A stretch of 64,000 nucleotides of DNA, from assembly GCA_029582155.1 (NCBI GenBank), contig CM055911.1, positions 26,313,590 through 26,377,589 of the forward strand. Reading direction: 5' to 3'. The DNA is from Panopea generosa. Taxonomy: Eukaryota; Mollusca; Bivalvia; Adapedonta; Hiatellidae. The position numbers and the translations under genes are program-made. Shown here piece after piece: positions 2,805-63,783 of this stretch. The notes beneath the pieces are model-generated. The model made no database searches. It had not been told where the DNA came from and saw only the letters and a program-made list of their open reading frames with translations. Position 1 is the first letter of the stretch, and every line of letters starts with the position of its first letter.

Positions 2805-3332
2805 CTCACAACCTGGGATAACCCATCTCACAACCTTGGATAACCCATCTCACAACCTGGGACAACCCATCATACAACCTGGAATAACCCATCATACAAC
2901 CTGGGATAATCCATCTTACAACCTGGGATAACCCATCTCACAACCTGGGATAACCCATCTCACAACCTGGGACAACCCATCATACAACCTGGAATAACCC
3001 ATCATACAACCTGGGATAATCCATCTTACAACCTGGGATAACCCATCTCACAACCTGGGATAACCCATCATACAACCTGGGATAATCCATCATACAACCT
3101 GGGATAATCCATCGTACAACCTGGGATAACCCATCATACAACCTGGAATAACCCATCATACAACCTGGGATAACCCATCTCACAACCTGGGATAACCCAT
3201 CATACAGCCTGGGTTAACCAATCTCACAACCTGGGTTAACCAATCTCACATCCTGGGTTAACCAATCTCATTTTGGGTTAACCCATCATACATCCTGGGT
3301 TAACCCATCATACATCCTGGGTTAACCCATCA
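2805..3332. repeat. 22 bp minisatellite, about 24 copies
   Basis: The unit begins CACAACCTGGGATAACCC. A five-unit block (110 bp) is duplicated, shown by GGGACAACCC at 2859 and 2969. The right-hand copies change to CTGGGTTAACCC. No spacers, so not CRISPR-like. Confidence 0.92.
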
Positions 3333-11376: not shown

Positions 11377-12218
11377 ATAAGGCAAATATAACAAAAGTCA
11401 TATATGAGAGGTATAACAACTGTACACATATTATAAAAAGCATATATTATAAAGGGCACTTCTTATAACAGGCACATATTATCAAAAGTAAATATTACAA
11501 AGGGCACTTCTTATAACGGGCATATATTATAAAAAGCATATATTACAAAGGGCACTTGTAATAACGGGCACATATTATAAAGAGCATATATTACAATGGG
11601 CACTTTTCATAACAGGCACATTTTATAAAAAGCATATATTATAAAGGGCACTTCTTATAACGAGTACATATTATTAAAAGCATATATTATAAAGGTCACT
11701 TCTTATAACAGGTACATATTATAAAAAGCATATATTATAAAGGGCATTTCTTATAACGGGCACATATTATTTAAAGCATATATTATTAAGGTCACTTCTT
11801 ATAACAGGCACATATTATAAAAAGTATATATTATAAAGGGCACTTCTTATAACAGGCACATATTATAAAAAAACATATATTATAAAGGGCACTTCTAATA
11901 ACAGGCACATATTATAAAAAACATATATTATAAAGGGCACTTCTAATAACGGACACATATTATAAAAAGCATATATTACAAAGGGCACTTCTTATAACGG
12001 GCACATATTATAAAAAGCATATATATAAAGGGCACTTCTTATAACGGGCATATATTATCAAGGGCATATATATAAAGGGCACTTCTTATAACAGGCACAT
12101 ATTATGAAAAGCAAATATTATAAAGGGCACTTTTAATATCAGGCACATATTGTAAAAAACATATATATAAAGGGCATTTCTTATAACGGGCACATATTAT
12201 AAAAAGCATATATTATAA

Positions 12219-13020
12219 AGGGCACTTCTGATAACGGGCACATATTATAAAAAGCATATATTATAAAGGGCACTTCTTATAACAGGCACATATAATAAAA
12301 AGCATATATTACAAAGGGCACTTCTAATAACGGGAACATATTATAAAAAGCATATATTGTAAAGGACACTACTTATAACGGGCACATATTATAAAAAGCA
12401 TATATTATAAAGGGCACTTCTGATAACGGGCACATATTATAAAAAGCATATATTATAAAGGGCACTGCTTATAACAGGCACATAAAATAAAAAGCATATA
12501 TTACAAAAGGCACTTGTAATAACGGGAACGTATTATAAAAAGCATATATTATAAAGGACAATACTTATAACGGGCACATATTATTAAAAGCATATATTAT
12601 AAAGGGCACTTCTGATAACGGGCACATATTATAAAAAGCATATATTATAAAGGGCACTTCTTATAACCGGCACATATTATAAAAAGTAAATATTACAAAG
12701 GGCACTTCTAATAACGGGCATATATTATAAAAAGCATATATTATAAAGGGCACTTCTGATAACGGGCACATATTATAAAAAGCATATATTATAAAGGGCA
12801 CTGCTTATAACAGGCACATAAAATAAAAAGCATATATTACAAAGGGCACTTCTAATAACGGGAACATATTATAAAAAGCATATATTATAAAGGACAATAC
12901 TTATAACGGGCACATATTATAAAAAGCATATATTATAAAGGGCACTTCTGATAACGGGCACATATTATAAAAAGCATATATTATAAAGGGCACTTCTTAT
13001 AACCGGCACATATTATAAAA
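12219..13020. repeat. higher-order repeat, 336 bp (7 monomers)
   Basis: The rare variant GGCACTGCTTATAACAGGC, with CATAAAATAAAAAG after it, occurs at 12461 and 12797, 336 bp apart. Flanking variants (CTTCTGATAAC, GGACAATACTT) repeat in the same order. Confidence 0.75.
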
Positions 13021-14140
13021 AGTAAATATTACAAAGGGCACTTCTAATAACGGGCATATATTATAAAAAGCATATATTACAAAGGGCACTTGTAATAACG
13101 GGCACATATTATAAAGAGCATATATTACAATGGGCACTTGTAATAACAGGCACATATTATAAAAAGCATATATTATAAATGGGCACTTCTGATAACGAAC
13201 ACATATTATTAAAAGCATATATTATAAAGGTCACTTCTTATAACAGGTACATATTATAAAAAGCATATATTATAAAGTGCATTTCTTATAACGGGCACAT
13301 ATTATAAAAAGCATATATTATAAAAGTCACTTCTTATAACAGGTTCATATTATAAAAAGTATATATTATAAAGGGCACTTCTTATAACAGGCACATATTA
13401 TAAAAAGCATATATTACAAAGGGCACTTCTTATAACAGGCACATATTATAAAAAACATATATTACAAAGGGCACTTCTTAAAACGGGCACATATTATGAA
13501 GAGCATATATTACAAAGGGCACTTGTATTAACGGGCACATATTATAAAGAGCATATATTACAATGGGCACTTGTAATAACAGGCACATATTATAAAAAGC
13601 ATATATTATAAAGGCACTTCTTATAACCGGCTCATATTATCAAAAGTAAATATTACAAAGGGCACTTCTTATAACGGGCATATATTATAAAAAGCATATA
13701 TTACAATGGGCACTTGTCATAACAGGCACATATTATAAAAAGCATATATTATAAAGGGCACTTCTTATAACGAGCATATATTATTAAAAGCATATATTAT
13801 AAAGGTCACTTCTTATAACAGGTACATATTATAAAAAGCATATATTATAAAGGGCATTTCTTATAACGGGCACATATTATTAAAAGCATATATTATTAAG
13901 GTCACTTCTTATAACAGGCAAATATTATAAAAAGTATATATTATAAAGGGCACTTCTTATAACAGGCACATATTATAAAAAGCATATATTACAAAGGGCA
14001 CTTCTTATAACAGGCAAATATTATAAAAAGCATATATTACAAAGGGCACTTCTTAAAACAGGCACATATTATAAAGAGCATATATCATAAATGGCACTTC
14101 TTATAACGGGCACATATTATAAAAAGCATATATTACAAAG

Positions 14141-14640
14141 GGCTCTTCTAATAACAGGCACATATTATTAAAAGTATATATTATAAAGGTCATTTTTTAT
14201 AACAGGCACATATTATAAAAAGCATATATTATAAAGGGAACTTCTTATAACAGGCACATATTATAAAAAGCATACATTACAAAGGGCACTTCTTATAACA
14301 GGCACATATTATGAAAAGCATATATTACAAAGGGCACTTCTAATAACAGGCACATATTATAAAAAGCATACATTACAAAGGGCTCTTCTAATAACAGGCA
14401 CATATTATTAAAAGTATATATTATAAAGGTCATCTTTTATAACAGGCACATATTATAAAAAGCATATATTATAAAGGGAACTTCTTATAACAGGCACATA
14501 TTATAAAAAGCATACATTACAAAGGGCACTTCTTATAACAGGCACATATTATGAAAAGCATATATTACAAAGGGCACTTCTAATAACAGGCACATATTAT
14601 AAAAAGCATACATTACAAAGGGCTCTTCTAATAACAGGCA
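14141..14640. repeat. higher-order repeat, 240 bp (5 monomers)
   Basis: The variant GGGCTCTTCTAATAACAGGC recurs at 14140, 14380 and 14620, exactly 240 bp apart, with the intervening variants also repeated in order. Confidence 0.85.
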
Positions 14641-14710
14641 CATATTATTAAAAGCATATATTACAAAGGGCATTTCTAATAACGGGCACATATTATAAAA
14701 AGCATATATT

Positions 14711-15530
14711 ATCAAGGGCACTTCTTATAACGGGAACATATTATAAAAAACATATATTATAAAGGGCACTTCTAATAACGGACACATATTATAAAAAGCA
14801 TATATTATAAAGGGCACTTCTTATAATGGGCACATATTATAAAAAGCATATATCATAAAGGGCACTTCTAATAACGGGCACATATTATAAAAAGCATATA
14901 TTACAAAGGGCATTTCTAATAACGGGTACATATTATAAAAGCATATATTATAAAGGGCACTTCTTATAACGGGTACATATTATAAAAAGCATATATTATC
15001 AAGGGCACTTCTTATAACGGGAACATATTATAAAAAGCATATATTATAAAGGGCACTTCTAATAACGGACACATATTATAAAAAGCATATATTATAAAGG
15101 GCACTTCTTATAATGGGCACATATTATAAAAAGCATATATCATAAAGGGCACTTCTAATAACGGGCACATATTATAAAAAGCATATATTACAAAGGGCAT
15201 TTCTAATAACGGGTACATATTATAAAAGCATATATTATAAAGGGCACTTCTTATAACGGGTACATATTATAAAAAGCATATATTATCAAGGGCACTTCTT
15301 ATAACGGGAACATATTATAAAAAGCATATATTATAAAGGGCACTTCTAATAACGGACACATATTATAAAAAGCATATATTATAAAGGGCACTTCTTATAA
15401 TGGGCACATATTATAAAAAGCATATATCATAAAGGGCACTTCTAATAACGGGCACATATTATAAAAAGCATATATTACAAAGGGCATTTCTAATAACGGG
15501 TACATATTATAAAAGCATATATTATAAAGG
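14711..15530. repeat. higher-order repeat, 287 bp (6 monomers less one base)
   Basis: The variant ATCAAGGGCACTTC recurs at 14711, 14998 and 15285. The 287 bp period is six monomers minus one base; a TATAAAAGCAT monomer that lost one A is carried in each copy. Confidence 0.85.
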
Positions 15531-16954
15531 GCACTTCTTATAACGGGCACATATTATATAAAGCATATATTACAAAGGGCACTTCTTATAACAAGTACAT
15601 ATTATAAAAAGCATATATTATAAAGGGCACTTCTAATAACGGACACATATTATAAAAAGCATATATTATAAAGGGCACTTCTTATAACGGGCACATATTA
15701 TAAAAAGCATATATTATAAAGGGCACTTCTAATAACGGGCACATATTATAAAAAGCATATATTACAAAGGGCATTTCTAATAACGGGTACATATTATAAA
15801 AAGCATATATTATAAAGGGCACTTCTTATAACGGGCACATATTATATAAAGCATATATTACAAAGGGCACTTCTTATAACAGGTACATATTATAAAAAGC
15901 ATATATTATAAAGGGCACTTCTAATAACGGACACATATTATAAAAAGGATATATTATAAAGGGCACTTGTTATAACAGGCACATATTATAAAAAGCATAT
16001 ATTACAAAGTTCACTTCTTATAACGGGCACATATTATAAAAAGCATATATTATAAAGGACTCTTCTTATAACGGGCGCATAGTATAGAAAGCATATATTA
16101 TAAAGGGCACTTTTGATAACGGGCACATATTATAAAAAGCAAATATTAGAAAGGGCACTTCTTATAACGGGCACATATTATAAAAAACATATATTATAAA
16201 GGGCACTTCTAATAACGGACACATATTATAAAAAGCATATATTATAAAGGGCACTTCTTATAACGGGCATATATTATAAAAAACATATATTATAAAGGTA
16301 CTTCTAATCACGGACACATATTATAAAAAGCAAATATTACAAAGGGCACTTCTAAAAACGGACACATGTTATAAAAAGCATATATTACAAAGGGCACTTC
16401 TTATAACGGGCACATATTATATAAAGCATATATTACAAATGGCACTTCTAATAACGGGCACATATTATAAAATCATATATTACAAAGGGCACTTCTTATA
16501 ACGGGCAGATATTATAAAAAGCATATATTACAAAGGCACTTCTAATAACGGGCACACATTATAAAAAGCATATATTACAAAGGGCACTTCTTATAACGGG
16601 CACATATTATAAAAAGCATATATTATAAAGGGCAAGGTACATATTATAAATAGCATAAATTATAAAGAGCACTTCTTATAACAGGTACATATTATAAAAA
16701 GCATATATTATAAAGGGCACTTGTTATAACGGGCACATATTATAAAAAGCATATATTACAAAGTTCACTTCTTATAACGGGCACATATTATAAAAAGCAT
16801 ATATTAGAAAGGACTCTACTTATAACGGGCGCATAGTATAGAAAGCATATATTATAAAGGGCACTTTTGATAACGGGCACATATTATAAAAAGCATATAT
16901 TATAAAGGGCACTTCTTATAACCGGCACATATTATAAAAAGTAAATATTATAAA

Positions 16955-17330
16955 GGGCCCTTCTTATAACGGGCATATATTATAAAAAGCATATATAACA
17001 AAGGGCACTTGTAATAACGGGCACATATTATAAAGAGCATATATTACAAAGGGCACTTCTTATAACAGGCACATGTTATAAAAAGCATATATTACAAAGG
17101 GCACTTCTAATAACGGACACATATTATAAAAAGTAAATATTATAAAGGGCCCTTCTTATAACGGGCATATATTATAAAAAGCATATATTACAAAGGGCAC
17201 TTGTAATAACGGGCACATATTATAAAGAGCATATATTACAAAGGGCACTTCTTATAACAGGCACATGTTATAAAAAGCATATATTACAAAGGGCACTTCT
17301 AATAACGGGCACATATTATAAAAAGCATAT
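16955..17330. repeat. higher-order repeat, 192 bp (4 monomers)
   Basis: The variant GGGCCCTTCTTATAAC occurs at 16955 and 17147, 192 bp apart, followed by the same order of variants, just before the array ends. Confidence 0.75.
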
Positions 17331-17340
17331 ATTTTAAATC

Positions 17341-30579: not shown

Positions 30580-31870
30580 AGCCACTGTTGCAATGTACAG
30601 GTCCAGTTTGAGATGTTTATATAGGTTATGTAATGTACAAAACGGGTCTGTGATGTTTATTTTAATAATGTTATGTACTGGTTAAGTGTGTGCTGTTTAA
30701 TTTGGTTATGTAATGTACTGGTTGAGTTTGTTGTGTTTATTTTGATTATGCAATATACTGGTCAAGTTTGTGATGTTTATTTTGCTGCTTGTTTTTATTA
30801 TTTAATGTACTGGTTGACTTTGACATGTTTATTTGAATTATGTAATGCATTGGTCTAGTGTGTAAGGTAAATGTTGATTATTTAATTTACTGGTCGACTT
30901 CGTGGTGTTATTTTTTATTATGTTATGTTATTGGTCGAGCTTATGGTGTCATTTTTTACTATGTAATGTACTGGTCGAGTTTGTGGTGTTATATTTAGTT
31001 ATTTAATGTCATGGTCCAGTTTGTGGTGTTTTTGTCTATTATTTAATGTACTGGTCGGGTGTGTAAGGTTAATGTTTATAATTTAATGTACTGGTCGAGT
31101 TGGTGTTGTTTTTTTTTTAATTATTTAATGTACTGGTCAAATGTGTGGTGTTATTGTTGACTATTTAATGTACTGGTCGAGTTTGTGGTGTTATTTGTTC
31201 ATTATTTAATGTACTGGTCGAGTGTGTAAGGTTTATGTTGATTATTTAATGTACTGATCGAGTGTGTGGTGTTATTTTTGATTATTTAATGTACTGATCG
31301 ACTGTGTTGTGTTATTTTTGATTATTTAATTGGTCGAGTGTGTGGTGTTATTGTTGATTATGTAATGTACTGGTCGAGAGTATGATATCTATCTTGATTA
31401 TTTAATGTACTGGCCGAGTTTGTGGTGTTATTTTTGATTATGTAATGTACTGGTCGAGTTTGTGGTGTTATTTCTGATTATGTAATGAACTGGTCGAGTG
31501 TGTAAGGTTAATTTTGATTATGCAATGTGCCGATTGAGTGTTTCGTGTTATTGTTGATTAATCAATGTACTGGTCGAGTTATGGTGTTGTTGTTGAATAT
31601 ATAATGTACTGGTCGAGTGTGATGTTATTTTTGATTATGTAATGTACCGATCGAGTGCTTCGTGTTATTGTTGATTATTCAATGTACTGGTCGAGTTATG
31701 GTGTTATTGTTGAATATCTAATGTACTGGTCGAGTGTGTGATGTTATTTTTGATTATGTAATGTACCGATAGAGTGCGTAATGTTTATTTCTATTATGCA
31801 ATGTCCTGGTCAAGGGTATTATGTTTATCTTGATTATGTAATGTTTGGTCGAGTAAGTGATACTATTTTG
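30580..31870. repeat. 40 bp minisatellite, about 31 diverged copies
   Basis: The unit centres on ATTTAATGTACTGGTCGAGT and continues with GTGTGGTGTTATTTTTG. Period is about 40-41 bp (first clear pair 30673 and 30713). Copies at the left end are the most diverged. Confidence 0.92.
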
Positions 31871-45636: not shown

Positions 45637-45716
45637 CTGTGGTAGGGCGGATATTTGAACTTACGACTCCTAGCTTGACAATCAGACGAGTTACCGACGG
45701 AGCTAGCCGGACCTGG
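45637..45716 (-). mobile_element. SINE family A head fragment
   Basis: Minus strand: CCGGCTAGCTCCGTCGGTAA with GTCGTAAGTTCAAATATCC as the box B region. The body is absent. Confidence 0.55.
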
Positions 45717-49598: not shown

Positions 49599-49854
49599 GC
49601 CGGACCCGATTAGCTCAGTCTGACTATCAACCAAGGGGTCGTTGAGTTCGAATCCCCGCCTGGCAACAGTCTCCGTGATGACTGAATTACGACATTGTGT
49701 CTCATAATCATTCGTTTCTCACCGTTGATTCAAGTGGGAAAGTCATCAGTTACTTGCGGAGATGAGATGAGCTCGAGTACTGGTAAATCCCAGGAAACAG
49801 TGGTTAGGTTAACTGATTGCCTGTTAGCTCTCGATGGCATAAAATGACGCTAAA

Positions 49855-51020: not shown

Positions 51021-51267
51021 CTACAAAATTAAGTCGAAAATGTGTCATAACTCCTGTATAATTTTACCTGATAATACCAAACTTGGCCTGTATTCTATAA
51101 TTATATAGCTACGCGTCTAATAGTATGTCATTATAAAGACCCTTTTAAAAGTTATTAATCGGACCCCCCTCCCGCCTTTACGTACGGACGCACAAATAGA
51201 CGAATACTCGATGTCCTTCACCATTCTTCGAATGGCGGGGGCATGGAAAAAACATCCAAAAAAATAG

Positions 51268-51426
51268 TTGGTTGGTTGGTTGGTTGGTTGGTTGGTTGGT
51301 TGGTTGGTTGGTTGGTTGGTTGGTTGGTTGGTTGGTTGGTTGGTTGGTTGGTTGGTTGGTTGGTTGGTTGGTTGGTTGGTTGGTTGGTTGGTTGGTTGGT
51401 TGGTTGGTTGGTTGGTTGGTTGGTTT
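51268..51426. repeat. (TTGG)n tetranucleotide, about 40 copies
   Basis: A near-perfect 159 bp array directly at the tail end of the SINE at 51427. Frames through it (WLVG and NQPT repeats) are artefacts. Confidence 0.95.
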
Positions 51427-57210: not shown

Positions 57211-57775
57211 ATGGGTGATGAGTCACACCAAAGATGTTGTGTGTTTGCCACTCGGACTGTGCACTCGCCATTCCCGTCTCATCTACCTGTAATCAAAGGT
57301 GACATTTTGACAGTGATTCAACCGGAAACAGATTCTTTCATACTCGCGGAAAACAAACACTTCATACGAGGTTTGGTAAATGTACAGAATGTCAGGCCTG
57401 TTGATCTTTATACAAATGAAGATTTCTTTCTTGTGGATTTCACCGCTAAAATGGCACAGATAATTTTAGCAGATAAACCATGTGGGACTTTTCTCGTCCG
57501 GTCGTACTCCCGAGACTCCGAGAAAATCGTCATTAGCGTAATCTTCAACAGTGTCAGGCACTACACCTTCGTTAAAAATGGTGGCGGAATTGAATATGAT
57601 GGTGTTGTGTATCAGTCGATACCAAGATTTGTGAACAAATGTTGCAATACGCAGAATCAGCCAATATTGGATGGATATCTAGGTCACTGGATCAAACAGT
57701 CGGAGGTTGTCCAACTACCCCTGGTTACTTCGCAGAACTACATGACAATGCAAAAAATGATATTAAGGATAGTAG
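57211..57775 (+). CDS. exon 1: SH3-like plus first SH2 domain
   Basis: Encodes residues 1-188 plus one base. Residues 9-66 read as an SH3-like fold, with KGDILTVI at 29-36 and GLVNVQNVRPV at 54-64, but the paired Trp of the ligand groove is replaced by Phe-Ile-Leu (43-45). Residues 70-145 form an SH2 domain: GTFLVRS at 92-98 holds the phosphotyrosine-binding Arg97, VRHYTF at 115-120 holds the strand-D His117, and YQSIPRFVNKC matches the C-terminal helix. The usual N-terminal Trp and the helix-A Arg are not apparent. The donor is TAG|GTATGA. An in-frame read-through continues to a stop at 57951 and would give a 246-residue short form with only SH3-SH2, if intron 1 were retained. Confidence 0.85.
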
Positions 57776-60700
57776 GTATGACTCTGGCAGTGTATAACAT
57801 GTTTTTTGTTGAGCCCAATTGCGGCAAGGTCAATATATTTCTCAATGGTGGTGCAGTGAATGCATGTGACTGTCCCTATAGTATTATTTTAACTGAACTA
57901 CATACATTTCACTGTATAGATGGCTTTACTGGTCACAGCAAAATATGTTGATTCCCCCAAAGTAGGTAAGTTGCTAGTGGTCGGTATCAGGAGTTGACCA
58001 TGATTGAAGGGATTACAAGGTGTGACATATTGAACATTTGTGGTAGTCCACTGGAGTATCAGCGAAAAAGTCTGGTTACCCTGTCCCAGTAGCCTGATTA
58101 AATTAAATAAGGCGTGGATGAACAGCTTTTTTATATTTGGATATATATCCTATGTTCTTTCTTGGAAGACGCAAAATAAACAATCGTCAAAAGGCTCCTT
58201 AGAAACATACAACATGTCACACAAGTACCCAGCACAATGTAATTGAAAGCTCAGCATAAACTCATGGTGATCAAGCTAACATGCACCCCTTGTGATTGGA
58301 CTTGAGTTATATTCACATTCTATGTACCATTGTAAAAACTGTACATGTGGTTCTGTTTATAAGCTATTTGAGCAGACATTCTTACATCGCTTTTAACATT
58401 ATTTCCTGTTTCCTGATATTTTTAGTTGTATTGTAACGTACTTCAAGAACACGTAATCTTTTCTATTGTTACTTAATTATGTAGATCATGAAACTTCCTT
58501 TGTTAACATGATGATGTTAATTGTATTTTCTGTTTTAATAAGTGTTTTTTTTCAATTAGTGCTTGTATTGTTTTGATACTAGGAAGAACTGTGTACTGAG
58601 AAAAAAGAGATAATGAAACTAACTACTACTTAGTGTTCTGTGAAATGAATGAAACAATTACATCAAACTATCGATAGATTGCAATTAAGTAAGAGTTTCG
58701 ATGGTATACATCAATTGTAAGAGTGGCACATTAGGCCATGTTAGATTATCATCCCGACCGTTCGCACCTTTAATTTTCATGCCACCTCGACCATTTTTAT
58801 TTCCATAAAAATAAAAAATAAAAAAAATAATTTTTTTTTTTAAAAAAATCCCCCTTTTTAAGAAAAAATTTGGATGATAATCTTGCAATTAATTTATTAT
58901 GGCCTTATACCACTTGATGCACCTTTCTTACTTCCCTATACATATAGTCAAACAATCTGTTGATAACACAATGGCTTTACTATAAACATGTACACACATA
59001 TTCAATTAAATATAAGTGGCAATATATATAAACTACAGTAAAACAATTTGATGTATATATTCACATTAACTCAACTACCACAGCAGTGGGATAATGGTAG
59101 GGCATCCGCTTCACATGTGGAAGGCTGTGGGTTCAATGGCAAGCAGGGTCATACCAAAGACTTGAGTTTCCTTGATTGGTGTTTAGTGGGTAGTTCAGGT
59201 CTGATCGACCTGGTGCCAGTATAATGTGACTAGTTGGGGTATCATATGTCTGTGGCATGATATTCCATTGTGGCAACGCTCAGAATTCTGTCTCAAGTAG
59301 ACACCGTCACAACATAACTGAAAAGCGACACTCAACACCATAAAGCAATAACTTCATCTTGAATTATTTATATTATTTCAGCTGGGTCCATAGCAGTGGC
59401 TGTAGATGACTATGTGTCCAACCACAGCCTGTTTCTTTCACTCAGCAAAGGGAACCAGTATACAGTGATACGAGCTAGCCGTGATCCTCAGTTTTACATC
59501 GCAAGAGATGAAGAGGAGAATGAAGGGTAAAAACATCGAATAACATCTTGCTTTGAAGCGATAAATTTTTATTATTTTGATTTTATCTCCATTATCATAG
59601 TCAGCGATTTCATGCATGGTACGAAGAAACCAAGGCTTGATGACATGTTGGAGAACTAGTGTTTAAGCAAGTAAAAACAGTTGCTTTTCTTTAAGGGCAC
59701 ACACAATGCATGGTTTTAAGTTTGTCATCGAGGGCTAACAGATGATCAGATCCTGGATGGTTAAACAGGAGTCAAGCACATCCATCACTGCAAGTAACTG
59801 ATAGCTTTCTTACTTGCATTAGTGATGAGAGGTCTATGTATGACAATGAGGCGCAATGTCATCAATCAATCATCAGTGAGACTGTGGTCCAGCAGGGATT
59901 CGAACTCACCCCCTGGATTGATAGTCAGACACAATACCGGACTGAGCTAATGGGGCCTGGCTAGTTTGACATCATTGTGAATCTGAGTAGAATCACCATC
60001 AAGTAACTGGCAAACTTTCTCACAGAACTTTTTTGGACAGGGTGAGGCTCGTACTTATAACCAGAGCAGCGAGAGGTATTTTATAAATCTCAGATCTTTC
60101 GAGGAATATAGCCTATTAGTCAGTGCAAAGTGTTGAAAATGGCTTTAATCCCCATTACTCCCCATTACAACACTTGTATACATGGTCATTGCAGGTATGT
60201 GGCGGCATCGATGTTGGAGTGCTACATACCGGAGTGGTTCCATGGTAGAATGGAAAGGGAAGAAGCCGAACAAATACTGAACAAAACTTGTCGTGATGGA
60301 ACATTTCTGGTGCGTGAACGTCCGTCCAAACCTGGCATGTTTGCGCTGTCTGTGTGGTGCCCTGATGGTATCATCCATGTACCTTTAGGTAAAGATCAAA
60401 TTTAGTATTATTTGTGGTGATTGTTAAAATACTGTACTTTCAGACTGTCAGCTGACATTAACCAGAGTGTGAGACCCAAGCTTGACCTGTACCTTTATGT
60501 CCTCTGTTTCCGAACGTGTGTGTTTATACACCATTAATCACTGACAACTGCCAATTAGATTTGTTTTTATTTAGTATTAAATGATAAGAATGGGGAGACT
60601 ATGTTATTCTATGATTCTCTGGGGTGTATGCATGTATCAAATTGGTAGTTTTGAATCACTTCTCAAGCATCCTCTGAATAGTAAAGTTTGTTATTAAAGA

Positions 60701-63700
60701 AGTCTTGTTCCACAGATATGTGTTTTTGGATGTATTAAACCCCAGCCTCTGAATTACAAATAGTGACTTGTAGCAATGATAGATGGTGACACTACTTTGT
60801 TTTTATTGTAGTACACTGTAGTTGATGTGTCCTCTTGTCGATTTGACAGAAAAATGCCTGGCAATCAATATCTATTTTCTTTCAGCTGTTCACTTACAAT
60901 TGTCCTTGTGTTCATTATTTATTAATATAACTATGTCTCCATCTCTCACAGAGACACATTGATGTTTTTTCTCGAGCTCACTTGGGGTGAACTTGACATA
61001 GTCATTACATTGGCGGCAAAGTGTAATGAGAGTTCAGAAATGAGTAAAAATATTCTTGTCAGTTCCGTATCTTAAAAACCACTGGGCAGATTTTGAGTGT
61101 TTAAACATAATAATACAAAGTGTTGCACGAATAACTAAGGTCAAGGTCATTGCTTAGAAGTTCTTATTTTTTTTGGCTTTTACATTAATTGTTGCGCCTT
61201 AGTCAATTAAAGTTAGGTCCATATCTTTTTTCTTATAGTTGCCTTAGATAAAACAGCAACTTTCTATGATGCTGATTGTTTGTTTGAATATTTAGCATCA
61301 TTTTATGCCATTGAGGGCTAATAGACGATCAGTTAACCTTACCGCTTCTACCTGGGAGTGTTGGAGGTGAATCAGTAATCAAACACACCCATCTTACCAA
61401 GTAACTGATCACTTCCCCAATTGAATTGGTGGTGAGAGATGAATGACAATGAGATGCATTGTCATATATCAGTCATTGCAGAGAATGTGGCCAGGTGGGG
61501 ATTAGAACTCATGAACCCTAGTTTGATAGTCAGACATGCTACTGACTGAGCTAACCGGGCCTAACAATACCGACCAGTAAATGCTCACATGTCTGAAAGG
61601 AACAGTTGTATATATCCAGTTTTCTTAAATAAAGCATGTGACATAACCCATGAACACCATATTTCAGCCTACAGTAACACCGGTCAGTTGACCACGGGTA
61701 ACAGTCCAGATCTGCCCGTGTTTGACTGCCTGCTGGATCTTGTTGACCACTATAGAAGACAAACAGCTTTCTGGACCATCAGCGGAGAATGTGTACGGAC
61801 ATTGTTTCCTCTGTCGAGAAGGGAATCCCTGCTCCCTGATGAGATACAGAGAATGGATTTACCTGAGATTGAGATGTACTTCAAAGCATTAAAAGAGGGA
61901 AAGGAGCACGTTCGGGATATAAGGTTAGGCCATCTTTAAAAAAAAGTCCTCATCTACTGTTCCCCACCCAATTCATGATTTTTTGTTTGTTGAAGAATTG
62001 TGATAAAATAGTAAAAGAAATAAAAGTTATATATTTTTTATGTAGGATCATTCTGCTTGGGTAAGTGGCCAGATGGGGATTTAAACTCATGACCCCTGGT
62101 TTGATAGTCAGACATGCTATCGACCGAGCCAACTGGGCCTGGCCTGGTCATTTTAAAACAGTACAAAGTTCATATGAACAAAATGCTCCTTGAAAGTCAA
62201 TAAAAAAAATGTGGTAGTTGCATTAAGTCACATATCACCTTGGTGTTCCCAGGGGTTAATGTGCATCGTTTTTTCACTTGGAACATTTCTTGTTGATTGG
62301 TATTGTTACTGTATTCAGGTTGATGGTTGTTGGTCACTACGGGGCTGGTAAATCTACCCTGACACAGAGACTGATGGGTCGCCCCTTTACCCAGTTGGGC
62401 AGCACAAATGGTATAGAAATTCACGTACGGCAATGCCAGTATAACATTAAGACAGGTCAGTGGTGTAAAAACAGACCGGGCTCAGCGTTCATGGATGACG
62501 AAGAAACTCATGCTATGAGGTATTTATTGCCCACTGCTAACATTTATTAACACTTAAAAATCAAACTTGGTATTTCAAGCGATTGATATAAAAATTAACT
62601 GGTAAACCTGGGTCTGAGATTATAAAACTTTGTTCCATATTCAACTTAAAAAGGAATGTACTCATTATAACAAAATACAGTCAAACCTGTCCTAAACAGC
62701 CAGTCATGGTAATTAACAAAAGTGGCCTTTTAAGACAGTTTATTGCATAATACAGGTTACTTTGGACTTTGAACCCACAAGTTTAGTTAGTGTAACTTAA
62801 TTAACATATTTATTCAAATTTACATACATACAAATCTGTTTAATCATAATAATTGATAAGAATGGTAGATAAAATGTTTTAAAGTTCTTCTCCCAATTTA
62901 ATTCCAGATTGCAACGTCTCTTAGAATCACCTGACGAGGAAAGAACTTCAGTCATGGAGGACTTCAAACGTCTGACCAATGCAAGATCTTCATCAAATAG
63001 AAATTCAGGGGACTTCACTCTTAATAGTACATCTAGTGATATCAGCATGTTGTCTCAGAATGATTCCTGCGCCTCCTTACAGGAGTCTCTGTCTGACCCA
63101 ACCCTCAGTAAGACTTCTACCGAGCTTGAAGAAAGTCTTAAAACATCTGTAAGTGACTACCAAATAGATATGGACAAAAATAATGTAGCACGCTACAAGT
63201 TCTCAGAAAGTACTCTGAAGGCCATATCACAAACATTTGGACGTAACAGACATGATAGTAAAAGTGAAAAATATGGTTTTATCTCGATGTGGGACTTTGC
63301 TGGACAGTACATATTCTATGCAACGCATCAAGTGTTCTTAAGTTCTCATGCAGTTTATCTGCTGGTTCTTGATCTGTCAAAAGATCTGGATGAGTTTGTT
63401 CAAGATGAAGAATTTCCACTCGAGTGCGTCAACATACAGGGTCATTGTGTGAAGGATTACGGGACATTCTGGCTACGATCCATACACACATTTTGCGGAA
63501 ATGTCCCGGGTCAGCCACCAGTCATTTTGATTGGAACGCACAAAGACCAAATGAAATGCTGCGAAGAAAGACGGGAAGAATTCGCAGAGAAATATTTTGA
63601 AGATTTCAGAAAGTTGGTTGAAAAACTGCCTGTGTCGAATCATATTCAGCCGGAGCAATTCATAGTGGATAATACATTGTCAGAGGAGGAGTTCACAAAA

Positions 63701-63783
63701 CTGAAGACAGCATTGGTCAATGTTGCTAAGCGACAACAGCAGTGGCACCAAGAGATTCCTGCAAGGTGGCTCCCGTTAGAAAG
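57211..63783 (+). CDS. Roco-family GTPase with tandem SH3-SH2 modules (six exons, 3' partial)
   Basis: Six exons join in frame: 57211-57775, 59382-59526, 60195-60388, 61668-61923, 62319-62519 and 62908-63783. Every intron is GT-AG and the phases are compatible (1, 2, 1, 2, 2; the last donor again leaves two bases). The product is at least 745 residues. Domains in order: SH3-like (about 9-66), SH2 (about 70-145, FLVR Arg97), SH3 (about 193-245), SH2 (about 250-335, FLVR Arg277), linker, Roc GTPase (about 386-730; P-loop GHYGAGKS at 392-399, DFAGQ at 583-587, THKD at 664-667), and the start of COR (IPARWLPLE at 737-745). The start ATG has A at -3 and G at +4. From family knowledge, Roc-COR is a dimerising GTPase switch and SH2 domains bind phosphotyrosine. 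Acting as a cytoplasmic tyrosine-signalling adaptor GTPase is inference. No kinase domain lies inside the window; the C-terminus is cut off by the window edge. Confidence 0.88.
58731..58905. mobile_element. hairpin-like MITE candidate in intron 1
   Basis: Both ends carry inverted copies of a segment with AGGCCAT and GATTATCATCC. Between them lie long runs of A and T. This suggests a small non-autonomous element, but no target duplication was made out. Confidence 0.35.
59092..59352 (+). mobile_element. SINE family C copy in intron 1
   Basis: The head resembles a tRNA (GATAATGGTAGGGCATC, then GTGGGTTCAATGGC). The body has TCATACCAAAGACTTGAG and GATCGACCTGGTGCC. The tail ends in CACTCAACACCATAAAGC. 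It has the same layout as copies at 6046, 2190, 21615 and 51427. Confidence 0.65.
59382..59526 (+). CDS. exon 2: second SH3 domain, first part
   Basis: Follows a TTATTTCAG acceptor and ends at GG|GTAAAA. It encodes residues 190-236 with split codons on both sides. VAVDDYV at 194-200 matches the ALYDY motif of SH3, and LSLSKGNQYTVI at 207-218 matches the acidic/KGD strand. The usual Trp pair is replaced by Phe226-Tyr227. The SH3 fold finishes in exon 3 with EGYVAASMLE. No open frame from an ATG marks this exon; it was found from splice signals and homology, and it is needed to keep exons 1 and 3 in phase. Confidence 0.82.
59721..59960 (-). mobile_element. SINE family A copy in intron 2
   Basis: Read on the minus strand it starts with a tRNA-like head (CCATTAGCTCAGTCCGG, box B as GAGTTCGAATCCC) and runs through a body ending near GTTAGCCCTCGATG. 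It lacks the (AATC) tail seen at 49599-49890. Confidence 0.7.
60000..60115 (-). mobile_element. SINE family D fragment in intron 2
   Basis: Keeps the AGTAACTGGCAAACTTTCTCAC stretch and a degraded box B side (GAGGCTCGTACTTATAACC) shared with the copies at 6967 and 33194. Truncated. Confidence 0.5.
60195..60388 (+). CDS. exon 3: end of SH3 and core of second SH2
   Basis: The acceptor is ATTGCAG and the donor is TTAG|GTAAAG. Encodes residues 238-301. YVAASMLE (238-245) closes the SH3. The SH2 then starts with a textbook EWFHGRMEREEAEQIL (250-265), including Trp251 and the helix-A Arg258, followed by GTFLVRERP (272-280) with Arg277 and GIIHVPL (295-301) with the strand-D His298. All three phosphate-contacting positions are kept, so this is the better candidate of the two SH2 domains for real phosphotyrosine binding. 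The close SH3-SH2 spacing resembles Src, Csk and Tec family proteins. Confidence 0.88.
60389..61667 (+). other. intron 3 of the Roco gene
   Basis: A 1279 bp intron with no coding signal seen. Its last third is a family A SINE on the opposite strand (61284-61562), ending about 100 bases from the acceptor of exon 4. Confidence 0.75.
61284..61562 (-). mobile_element. SINE family A copy in intron 3
   Basis: On the minus strand: head CCCGGTTAGCTCAGTCAGTA, box B GAGTTCTAATCCC, body with AGTGATCAGTTACTTGG and end GATGGCATAAAATGATGC. Near full length and close in sequence to the copies at 42476 and 49599. Confidence 0.75.
61668..61923 (+). CDS. exon 4: end of second SH2 and linker to Roc
   Basis: The acceptor is ACCATATTTCAG and the donor is AAG|GTTAGG. 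Encodes residues 303-386. LPVFDCLLDLVDHYRRQ (317-333) is the C-terminal helix of the SH2 (the FxSLxDLVxHY pattern). Residues 340-386 are a charged linker ending in LPEIEMYFKALKEGKEH, probably helical, which leads into the first strand of Roc. An upstream ATG in the same frame at 61589 lies in the intron and is not needed. Confidence 0.86.
62058..62143 (-). mobile_element. SINE family A head fragment in intron 4
   Basis: Only the tRNA-like head remains, with CCCAGTTGGCTCGGTCGA and GAGTTTAAATCCCC on the minus strand. The body is missing. Confidence 0.6.
62319..62519 (+). CDS. exon 5: Roc GTPase P-loop and switch I
   Basis: The acceptor is GTATTCAG and the donor is ATGAG|GTATTT. Encodes residues 388-453. 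LMVVGHYGAGKSTLTQRL (388-405) is a Walker A/G1 loop with Lys398 and Ser399 for phosphate and Mg contacts. GSTNGIEIHV (414-423) resembles the switch I/G2 segment of Roc domains, with Thr416 in the place of the catalytic-loop threonine. The acidic DDEETHAMR end begins a long insertion that continues in exon 6. Confidence 0.88.
62676..62765. repeat. dispersed repeat fragment in intron 5
   Basis: The segment with CAGTCAAACCTGTCCTAAAC and GTGGCCTTTTAAGACAG resembles a short element I have seen in many invertebrate genomes. The assignment is from memory and weak. Confidence 0.3.
62908..63783 (+). CDS. exon 6: Roc insertion, G3-G5 region and COR start
   Basis: The acceptor is AATTCCAG and the donor is AAG|GTATAC; the gene continues past the window. 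Encodes residues 455-745. About residues 472-575 are rich in Ser, Thr and acidic residues and look disordered; they sit between G2 and G3 and are longer than the usual spacing. SMWDFAGQYIFYATHQVFL (580-598) is G3/switch II, with Gln587 at the Ras Gln61 position by motif. ILIGTHKD (660-667) is G4. RQQQWHQEIPARWLPLE (729-745) is the typical Roc-COR junction. There is no extra leucine-rich repeat region. Confidence 0.9.

Follow-up and report, generated by a model that had tools for sequence, protein, structure and literature searches.

A predicted Roco protein of the bivalve Panopea generosa carries two SH3-SH2 units ahead of Roc-COR and a Death domain

Roco proteins, in which a Ras-like Roc GTPase is directly followed by COR, were grouped in a 2019 review into leucine-rich repeat (LRR)-only, LRR-kinase and DAPK classes, and the term SH2 is absent from the accessible portion of that review (PMC6337361). 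Trichoplax Rocos carry SH3, CARD, TIR, death, tetratricopeptide and MBT modules according to the accessible part of a 2014 survey (PMC4104024), and TIR-ROCO proteins are included in that of the Aplysia immunome (PMC9334734); 'SH2' has no occurrence in the main text of either paper. Here we describe a Roco gene in a 64,000-nucleotide stretch of the 1.47-Gb genome of P. generosa (assembly GCA_029582155.1, contig CM055911.1, positions 26,313,590 to 26,377,589), referred to below as the window, with the full predicted domain order SH3-SH2-SH3-SH2-Roc-COR-Death. The protein resembles the Trichoplax and Aplysia Rocos, as far as the accessible parts of the two papers describe them, in having lineage-specific modules around Roc-COR (PMC4104024; PMC9334734). 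The original prediction, made from the window sequence alone, had held that no Roco with SH2 domains was known. Indeed, none was found described in the open-licence literature, a scope outside which most subscription papers fall, and the accessible portions of seven texts using both 'SH2' and 'Roco' (PMC4053784, PMC6563779, PMC8195603, PMC1420674, PMC7573214, PMC3188802 and PMC9138534) contain no joint SH2-Roco protein. Within the open-licence literature searched, SH3/SH2, Roc-COR and Death in one chain appears to be a new combination.

The whole gene consists of eight exons and seven introns, spans 9.8 kb including introns and encodes 1193 amino acids. Its six exons in the window have exactly the borders predicted and join without a stop codon into a product of 745 amino acids, all introns being GT-AG with phases 1, 2, 1, 2 and 2. 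The predicted order of SH3-like, SH2, SH3, SH2, Roc and COR was likewise borne out, except that of COR only the first ~10 residues (..IPARWLPLE) lie inside this span. The 3' extension called for by the original prediction was made over ~20 kb from window position 63001 onward and searched with three orthologues; it located exons 7 and 8, which fall 3' of the window and close with a stop codon, and exon 8 ends in a Death domain. The features of the gene are as follows.

57211 to 57775, plus strand: exon 1, with the start methionine, SH3-1 and SH2-1; amino acids 1-188 plus one base; modelled fold SH3-SH2.
57232 to 57399, plus strand: SH3-1, amino acids 8-63; SH3_2 9e-4 in the spliced protein, under the Pfam cut-off; Foldseek matches to the SH3-SH2 of Src, Hck and Csk.
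57418 to 57648, plus strand: SH2-1, amino acids 70-146; GTFLVR arginine and H-Y; Pfam SH2 4.3e-6 on exon 1 alone, also matched by the family profile.
59382 to 59526, plus strand: exon 2, most of SH3-2, amino acids 190-237; SH3_1 0.009 on the exon alone, under the cut-off.
60195 to 60388, plus strand: exon 3, end of SH3-2 and first half of SH2-2 (from 60229), with the GTFLVR arginine; Pfam SH2 4.7e-15 on the exon alone.
61668 to 61923, plus strand: exon 4, second half of SH2-2 (to about 61813) and linker to Roc; conserved in relatives.
62319 to 62519, plus strand: exon 5, N-terminal half of Roc with the P-loop GHYGAGKS (62332-62355); Pfam Roc 7.9e-4 and 20.1 bits alone, cut-off 27.
62479 to 63256, plus strand: Roc insert, amino acids ~441-570, split by intron 5; Tyr538 (63158-63160) and Tyr550 (63194-63196).
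62908 to 63783, plus strand: exon 6, rest of the Roc insert, WDFAGQ (63290-63307), GTHKD (63533-63547) and start of COR (63752-63781); Pfam Roc 3.9e-9 alone.
64825 to 64941 of the extended window (L009:1825-1941), plus strand: exon 7, 3' continuation outside the window.
65774 to 67001 of the extended window (L009:2774-4001), plus strand: exon 8, COR and Death, outside the window.

As the original prediction had anticipated, profile search of the spliced 745-residue product found SH2 and Roc, Pfam SH2 (1.7e-24) in two stretches and Pfam Roc (3.1e-13) in two stretches separated by a long insert. With seven introns, the gene model could stem from an assembly or annotation fusion in which an SH3-SH2 adaptor had been wrongly joined to the Roco gene next to it, and exon 4, the predicted bridge between SH2 and Roc, gave no Pfam SH2 match when searched alone, because it contains just the second half of SH2-2. 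In the spliced protein, the SH2-2 match covers residues 251-330 and spans the exon 3/4 junction at 301/302, and exon 4 then runs on into the Roc linker, as predicted. Five full-length database relatives (Mactra antiquata, Mercenaria mercenaria, Mya arenaria, Dreissena polymorpha and a protein designated P0004) match the window protein end to end, and their identity of 51-62% over the whole length excludes a chance resemblance. The same domain order was recovered from independent genomes, and none of the seven splice junctions was hit by an alignment gap in the five relatives, the nearest gap columns standing 4 and 5 residues away from junctions 3 and 2. The P0004 sequence comes to 1176 codons on a contig of 4234 bases, to be compared with the 9.8 kb of the window gene, and this contig is therefore probably a transcript.

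Three paralogues in the same genome (L013, L014 and L020) bear on the question of fusion as well, since they contain SH2, Roc, COR and Death in single uninterrupted frames of 1213, 1158 and 1039 amino acids. The Pfam cut-off for SH2 was passed by L020 (49.1 bits) and L013 (28.3 bits), and the SH2 of L014 was detected by the family profile only. L020 alone matches the SH2 of SHP2 (3.2e-9) and the Roc-COR of LRRK2 (2.3e-11), and since its SH2 and Roc-COR-Death share one frame, its architecture needs no splicing model. Given the full-length relatives, the gap-free junctions and the single-frame paralogues, a fusion artefact is extremely improbable and was rejected, in agreement with the original prediction; on the sequences compared, the architecture of the window gene is that of a genuine single gene conserved in other bivalves. 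Separately, a piece in frame 1 at 6563 of L039 is weakly SH3-1-like (E 0.003); it precedes the L020 frame by slightly more than 2 kb and is possibly an upstream SH3-1 exon.

Both SH2 domains of the window protein combine the SH2 fold with the FLVR arginine (GTFLVR), and both have the histidine in the strand that follows, as H-Y in SH2-1 and as H-V in SH2-2. SH3-2 and SH2-2 together align with the SH3-SH2 of Grb2 (residues 193-332, 3.1e-11), and the strands of SH3-2 are present in the model of the Mactra relative. Over ~150 columns, Foldseek matched the exon 1 model to SH3-SH2 units from Csk, Lck, Src and Hck, and by its modelled fold SH3-1 is clearly an SH3. The best sequence matches for the SH2-2 region include SHP2, PLC-gamma, RasGAP and Grb2, and RasGAP is the best non-Roco fold match; the order SH2-1, SH3-2, SH2-2 repeats the SH2-SH3-SH2 cassette of p120RasGAP. 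To our knowledge, p120RasGAP, PLC-gamma, SHP2 and Grb2 bear a GAP, lipase, phosphatase or no enzyme, and none of them has Roc-COR or a Death domain.

In Roc, the P-loop (GHYGAGKS), switch II (WDFAGQ) and GTHKD motifs are all intact. COR directly follows Roc, and COR-A exceeded its cut-off in all five relatives and in exon 8 of the window gene alone (38.6 bits). The model of the Mactra relative matches the Roc-COR of LRRK2 and of C. tepidum, with the structural alignment continuing through COR. The NTPase of the window protein is a Roc and not a NACHT or NB-ARC domain; nSTAND3 appeared only below its cut-off, in P0005 and the paralogues L013 and L020. The insert that divides Roc was mostly of low confidence in the model of the Mactra relative, and its residues Tyr538 and Tyr550 are invariant in six aligned orthologues. 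An NCBIfam search gave nothing useful.

The Death domain scored 24.5 bits in exon 8 and 22.8-43.0 bits in the five relatives (Pfam cut-off 22.6). Its nearest solved counterparts are those of CRADD (RAIDD) and RIPK1, and the Dreissena copy matches CRADD at 1.4e-9 and an entry named PIDD-CC at 1.9e-6. PIDD has LRR-ZU5 ahead of its Death domain, a place taken in the window protein by the GTPase switch. Because the C-terminal domain is a Death domain, the likely output moves from Src-like signalling to death-fold assembly.

DAPK1 carries ankyrin repeats, and the DAPK1 group resembles the window protein in having Roc-COR and then a C-terminal Death domain without LRRs. No kinase, ankyrin or LRR match was obtained in the window part at E up to 1, a level at which the filters of HMMER drop most matches above 0.1, or in the five full relatives at E up to 0.1. 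The protein has the Death domain of the DAPK group and lacks a match to the kinase and ankyrin repeats that stand before Roc in that group. DAPK1 has a kinase before Roc in the accessible portion of the 2019 review (PMC6337361), where the window protein has four SH3/SH2 domains instead, and the long disordered insert in Roc sets it further apart from the DAPK1 group. It also differs from LRRK1, LRRK2 and the prokaryotic Rocos (C. tepidum and M. barkeri) in its Death end and in having no LRR or kinase match, which likewise separates it from MFHAS1 with its LRRs.

The reading we prefer, held at about even confidence, is that the window protein is a phosphotyrosine-targeted, GTP-switched Death-domain platform, its phosphotyrosine binding, GTP switching and Death-domain assembly being predicted from the families to which the domains belong. 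The two SH3-SH2 units would bind partners phosphorylated on tyrosine, such as activated receptors or the adaptors of these, and docking would relieve or align the Roc-COR GTPase, a steering by phosphotyrosine that can reasonably be inferred. The GTP/GDP state of Roc-COR would in turn govern the exposure or clustering of the C-terminal Death domain, which could then seed a death-fold assembly similar to those of RAIDD, PIDD and RIPK1. At a guess, phosphorylation and the SH2s may meet in the Roc insert, which is disordered and contains the two invariant tyrosines. In the orthologue group of the window protein together with Sinanodonta woodiana (seven proteins), arginine occupies the FLVR column of SH2-1 in 7/7 and that of SH2-2 in 5/7, and the histidine of the H-Y/H-V pair is invariant across the six aligned orthologues. 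This conservation argues against a scaffold that does not read phosphotyrosine, in which the SH3-SH2 units would pack on Roc-COR and the protein would undergo GTP-dependent dimerisation as in other Rocos.

Several observations weigh against the platform reading, and those on the FLVR column favour such a scaffold. Lysine replaces the SH2-2 arginine in Mya and Dreissena, serine stands at the arginine column in the first SH2 of L020, and all seven proteins of the P0046 group lack the arginine in both SH2s, with tryptophan in SH2-1 and alanine or valine in SH2-2; several of them have arginine or lysine one place after the FLVR column. In L013 and L014 the equivalent segments have the degenerate forms FFISK and FIIAK and gave a weak SH2 profile match or none. 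Because several relatives are without the FLVR arginine, phosphotyrosine binding is predicted not to be retained in every family member. At the sequence level the two SH3s gave weak matches (SH3_2 9e-4 and SH3_1 3e-3, each under the Pfam cut-off), and SH3-1 is the least conserved domain (30-41%). A pTM of 0.72 for the full-length model suggests that the domains may pack, also in line with the scaffold, which we nevertheless consider unlikely for the window protein.

The Roc insert bears on the same question. ITAM-like tyrosine pairs occur in the inserts of 6/21 SH2-Rocos and of 1/102 others (shuffled means 0.36 and 1.8), 12 of the 114 non-SH2 rows having yielded no insert to the pattern used. 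All six SH2-Rocos concerned belong to the P0046 group, the clade without SH2 arginines, a distribution that speaks against a general SH2-to-insert switch, and an internal switch built on ITAM-like pairs was rejected on this ground. A looser single motif, scored with an earlier and narrower pattern, was present in 13/18 SH2-Rocos and 14/25 others, not a clear difference, and the tyrosine content of the inserts was alike (2.24% vs 2.17%). As a separate observation, P0046-P0048, P0051-P0053 and P0056 have YxxI/V motifs in the Roc insert, and six of these seven fit an ITAM-like pair.

The search for SH2 and Roc in one protein was extended to other molluscs, as the original prediction had advised, and found both in several bivalves. 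A word-limited protein search with residues 570-1193 scored 7990 candidates, provided the best 120 of 311 matches and added S. woodiana (two SH2, Roc, COR-A and Death), Mizuhopecten yessoensis, Ylistrum balloti and further rows; a search with a nine-sequence alignment yielded no additional Roco. Database entries for the relatives are named 'uncharacterized', 'hypothetical', 'CRADD-like', 'pats1' or 'non-specific serine/threonine protein kinase'. A profile built from the family's own SH2s found SH2 in 22 of 136 family rows, which are the best matches plus 15 frames from the P. generosa genome and not a random sample. The SH2-bearing rows are bivalve by taxonomy in Mactra, Dreissena, Sinanodonta and Mizuhopecten, and Mercenaria, Mya and Ylistrum we take to be bivalves; this statement covers the SH2 rows other than P0004, P0046-48, P0051-53, P0055 and P0056, and SH2-Rocos in other phyla are possible. 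P0049 and P0055, both of the scallop type, carry EF-hand/EH and Macro domains along with a pair of SH2s ahead of Roc-COR-Death, and seem to represent a distinct SH2-Roco architecture.

Trees of the Roc-COR-Death region were made from 135 rows (FastTree) and 57 rows (IQ-TREE quick), with P0006 excluded from both. The window clade of six had a support of 100 in both trees, and in the second tree only, Sinanodonta and the P0046 group fell into a single clade with the window group (12 rows, SH-aLRT 87, not starred). The SH2-bearing rows clustered, yet four label changes were required in both trees; on these trees SH2 would have been gained or lost by the Roc-COR-Death core more than once. With the root insecure, either one old SH2-Roco origin with losses or several gains may account for this pattern. 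As to missed upstream exons as a source of false tree labels, a search of ~9.5-9.9 kb stretches running into the frame start, made for 8 of the 12 own-genome frames scored as non-SH2, found no SH2; three SH2-bearing control frames were recovered likewise, a control of detection only, since their SH2s lie inside the frame, and the non-SH2 rows from outside the genome are database proteins accepted as they stand.

Swapped modules act as decoys in NLR-type immune receptors, and the SH2-SH3 part could similarly mimic host phosphotyrosine adaptors, such that interference by a pathogen would trip the Roc-COR-Death switch. Roc is much multiplied in the P. generosa genome, where the scoring of 150 out of 339 candidates gave at least 133 exon-level matches, and Roc-COR occurs in combination with many further modules, some of them familiar from immunity. 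A Death domain was precomputed in about 74 of the best 120 of 311 relatives (hand count), many with other modules, and Pfam confirmed TIR, CARD, caspase, HEPN_DZIP3, OTU, Macro, Ig and EH/EF-hand/SH2 in eight relatives picked to illustrate diversity. The accessible portions of two papers propose that Rocos of brown algae and of bacteria are immune receptors or conflict systems (PMC11378527; PMC8195603). The window gene itself has no close duplicate in its own genome, where the next full-length match is 34% identical, and its relatives in other species are closer. A sensor that multiplies fast would show a different pattern, and a guard or integrated-decoy role is in our judgement quite unlikely. 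Elsewhere in the genome, C3:37737034/37930072 and C3:49451946/50024937 are near-identical Roc-COR-Death pairs, either recent duplicates or uncollapsed haplotypes.

Short repeats resembling the head of a tRNA (GGCCCGGTTAGCTCAGT...GTTCNAATCCC) were seen in the window at 59941-59957, 61545-61561 and 62123-62139 (minus), three of them thus placed in introns 2-4 of the Roco gene, and also at 49603-49619 (plus) and 45697-45713 (minus). The five matches at up to three mismatches compare with 0.08 expected. ARAGORN did not call these repeats tRNA, and tRNA and Rfam scans across the window gave no match; the repeats are probably a tRNA-derived SINE. The window also contains four tandem arrays.

2808 to 3332: 22-base unit, 24 copies.
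11425 to 17338: 5.9 kb, 48/144-base unit, about 41 copies of the 144-mer.
30592 to 31854: 40/80-base unit.
51267 to 51425: perfect GTTG, 40 copies.

The control of Roc-COR by upstream signals is a question of the LRRK2 field, and the platform reading offers a natural Roco with a likely phosphopeptide input, which can be made and titrated, and a Death-domain output, whose assembly can be scored, so that their coupling is directly testable. Three signalling vocabularies, phosphotyrosine, GTPase and death fold, would be united in one chain. The gene further points to a large, little-described Roco radiation in bivalves. Tentatively, bivalve Roc-COR may be an NLR-like switch family with exchangeable sensor and death-fold modules, in which the SH2-Roco sensor would read host tyrosine phosphorylation and convert a signal, or its corruption by a pathogen, into Death-domain assembly via the GTPase switch within a single chain.
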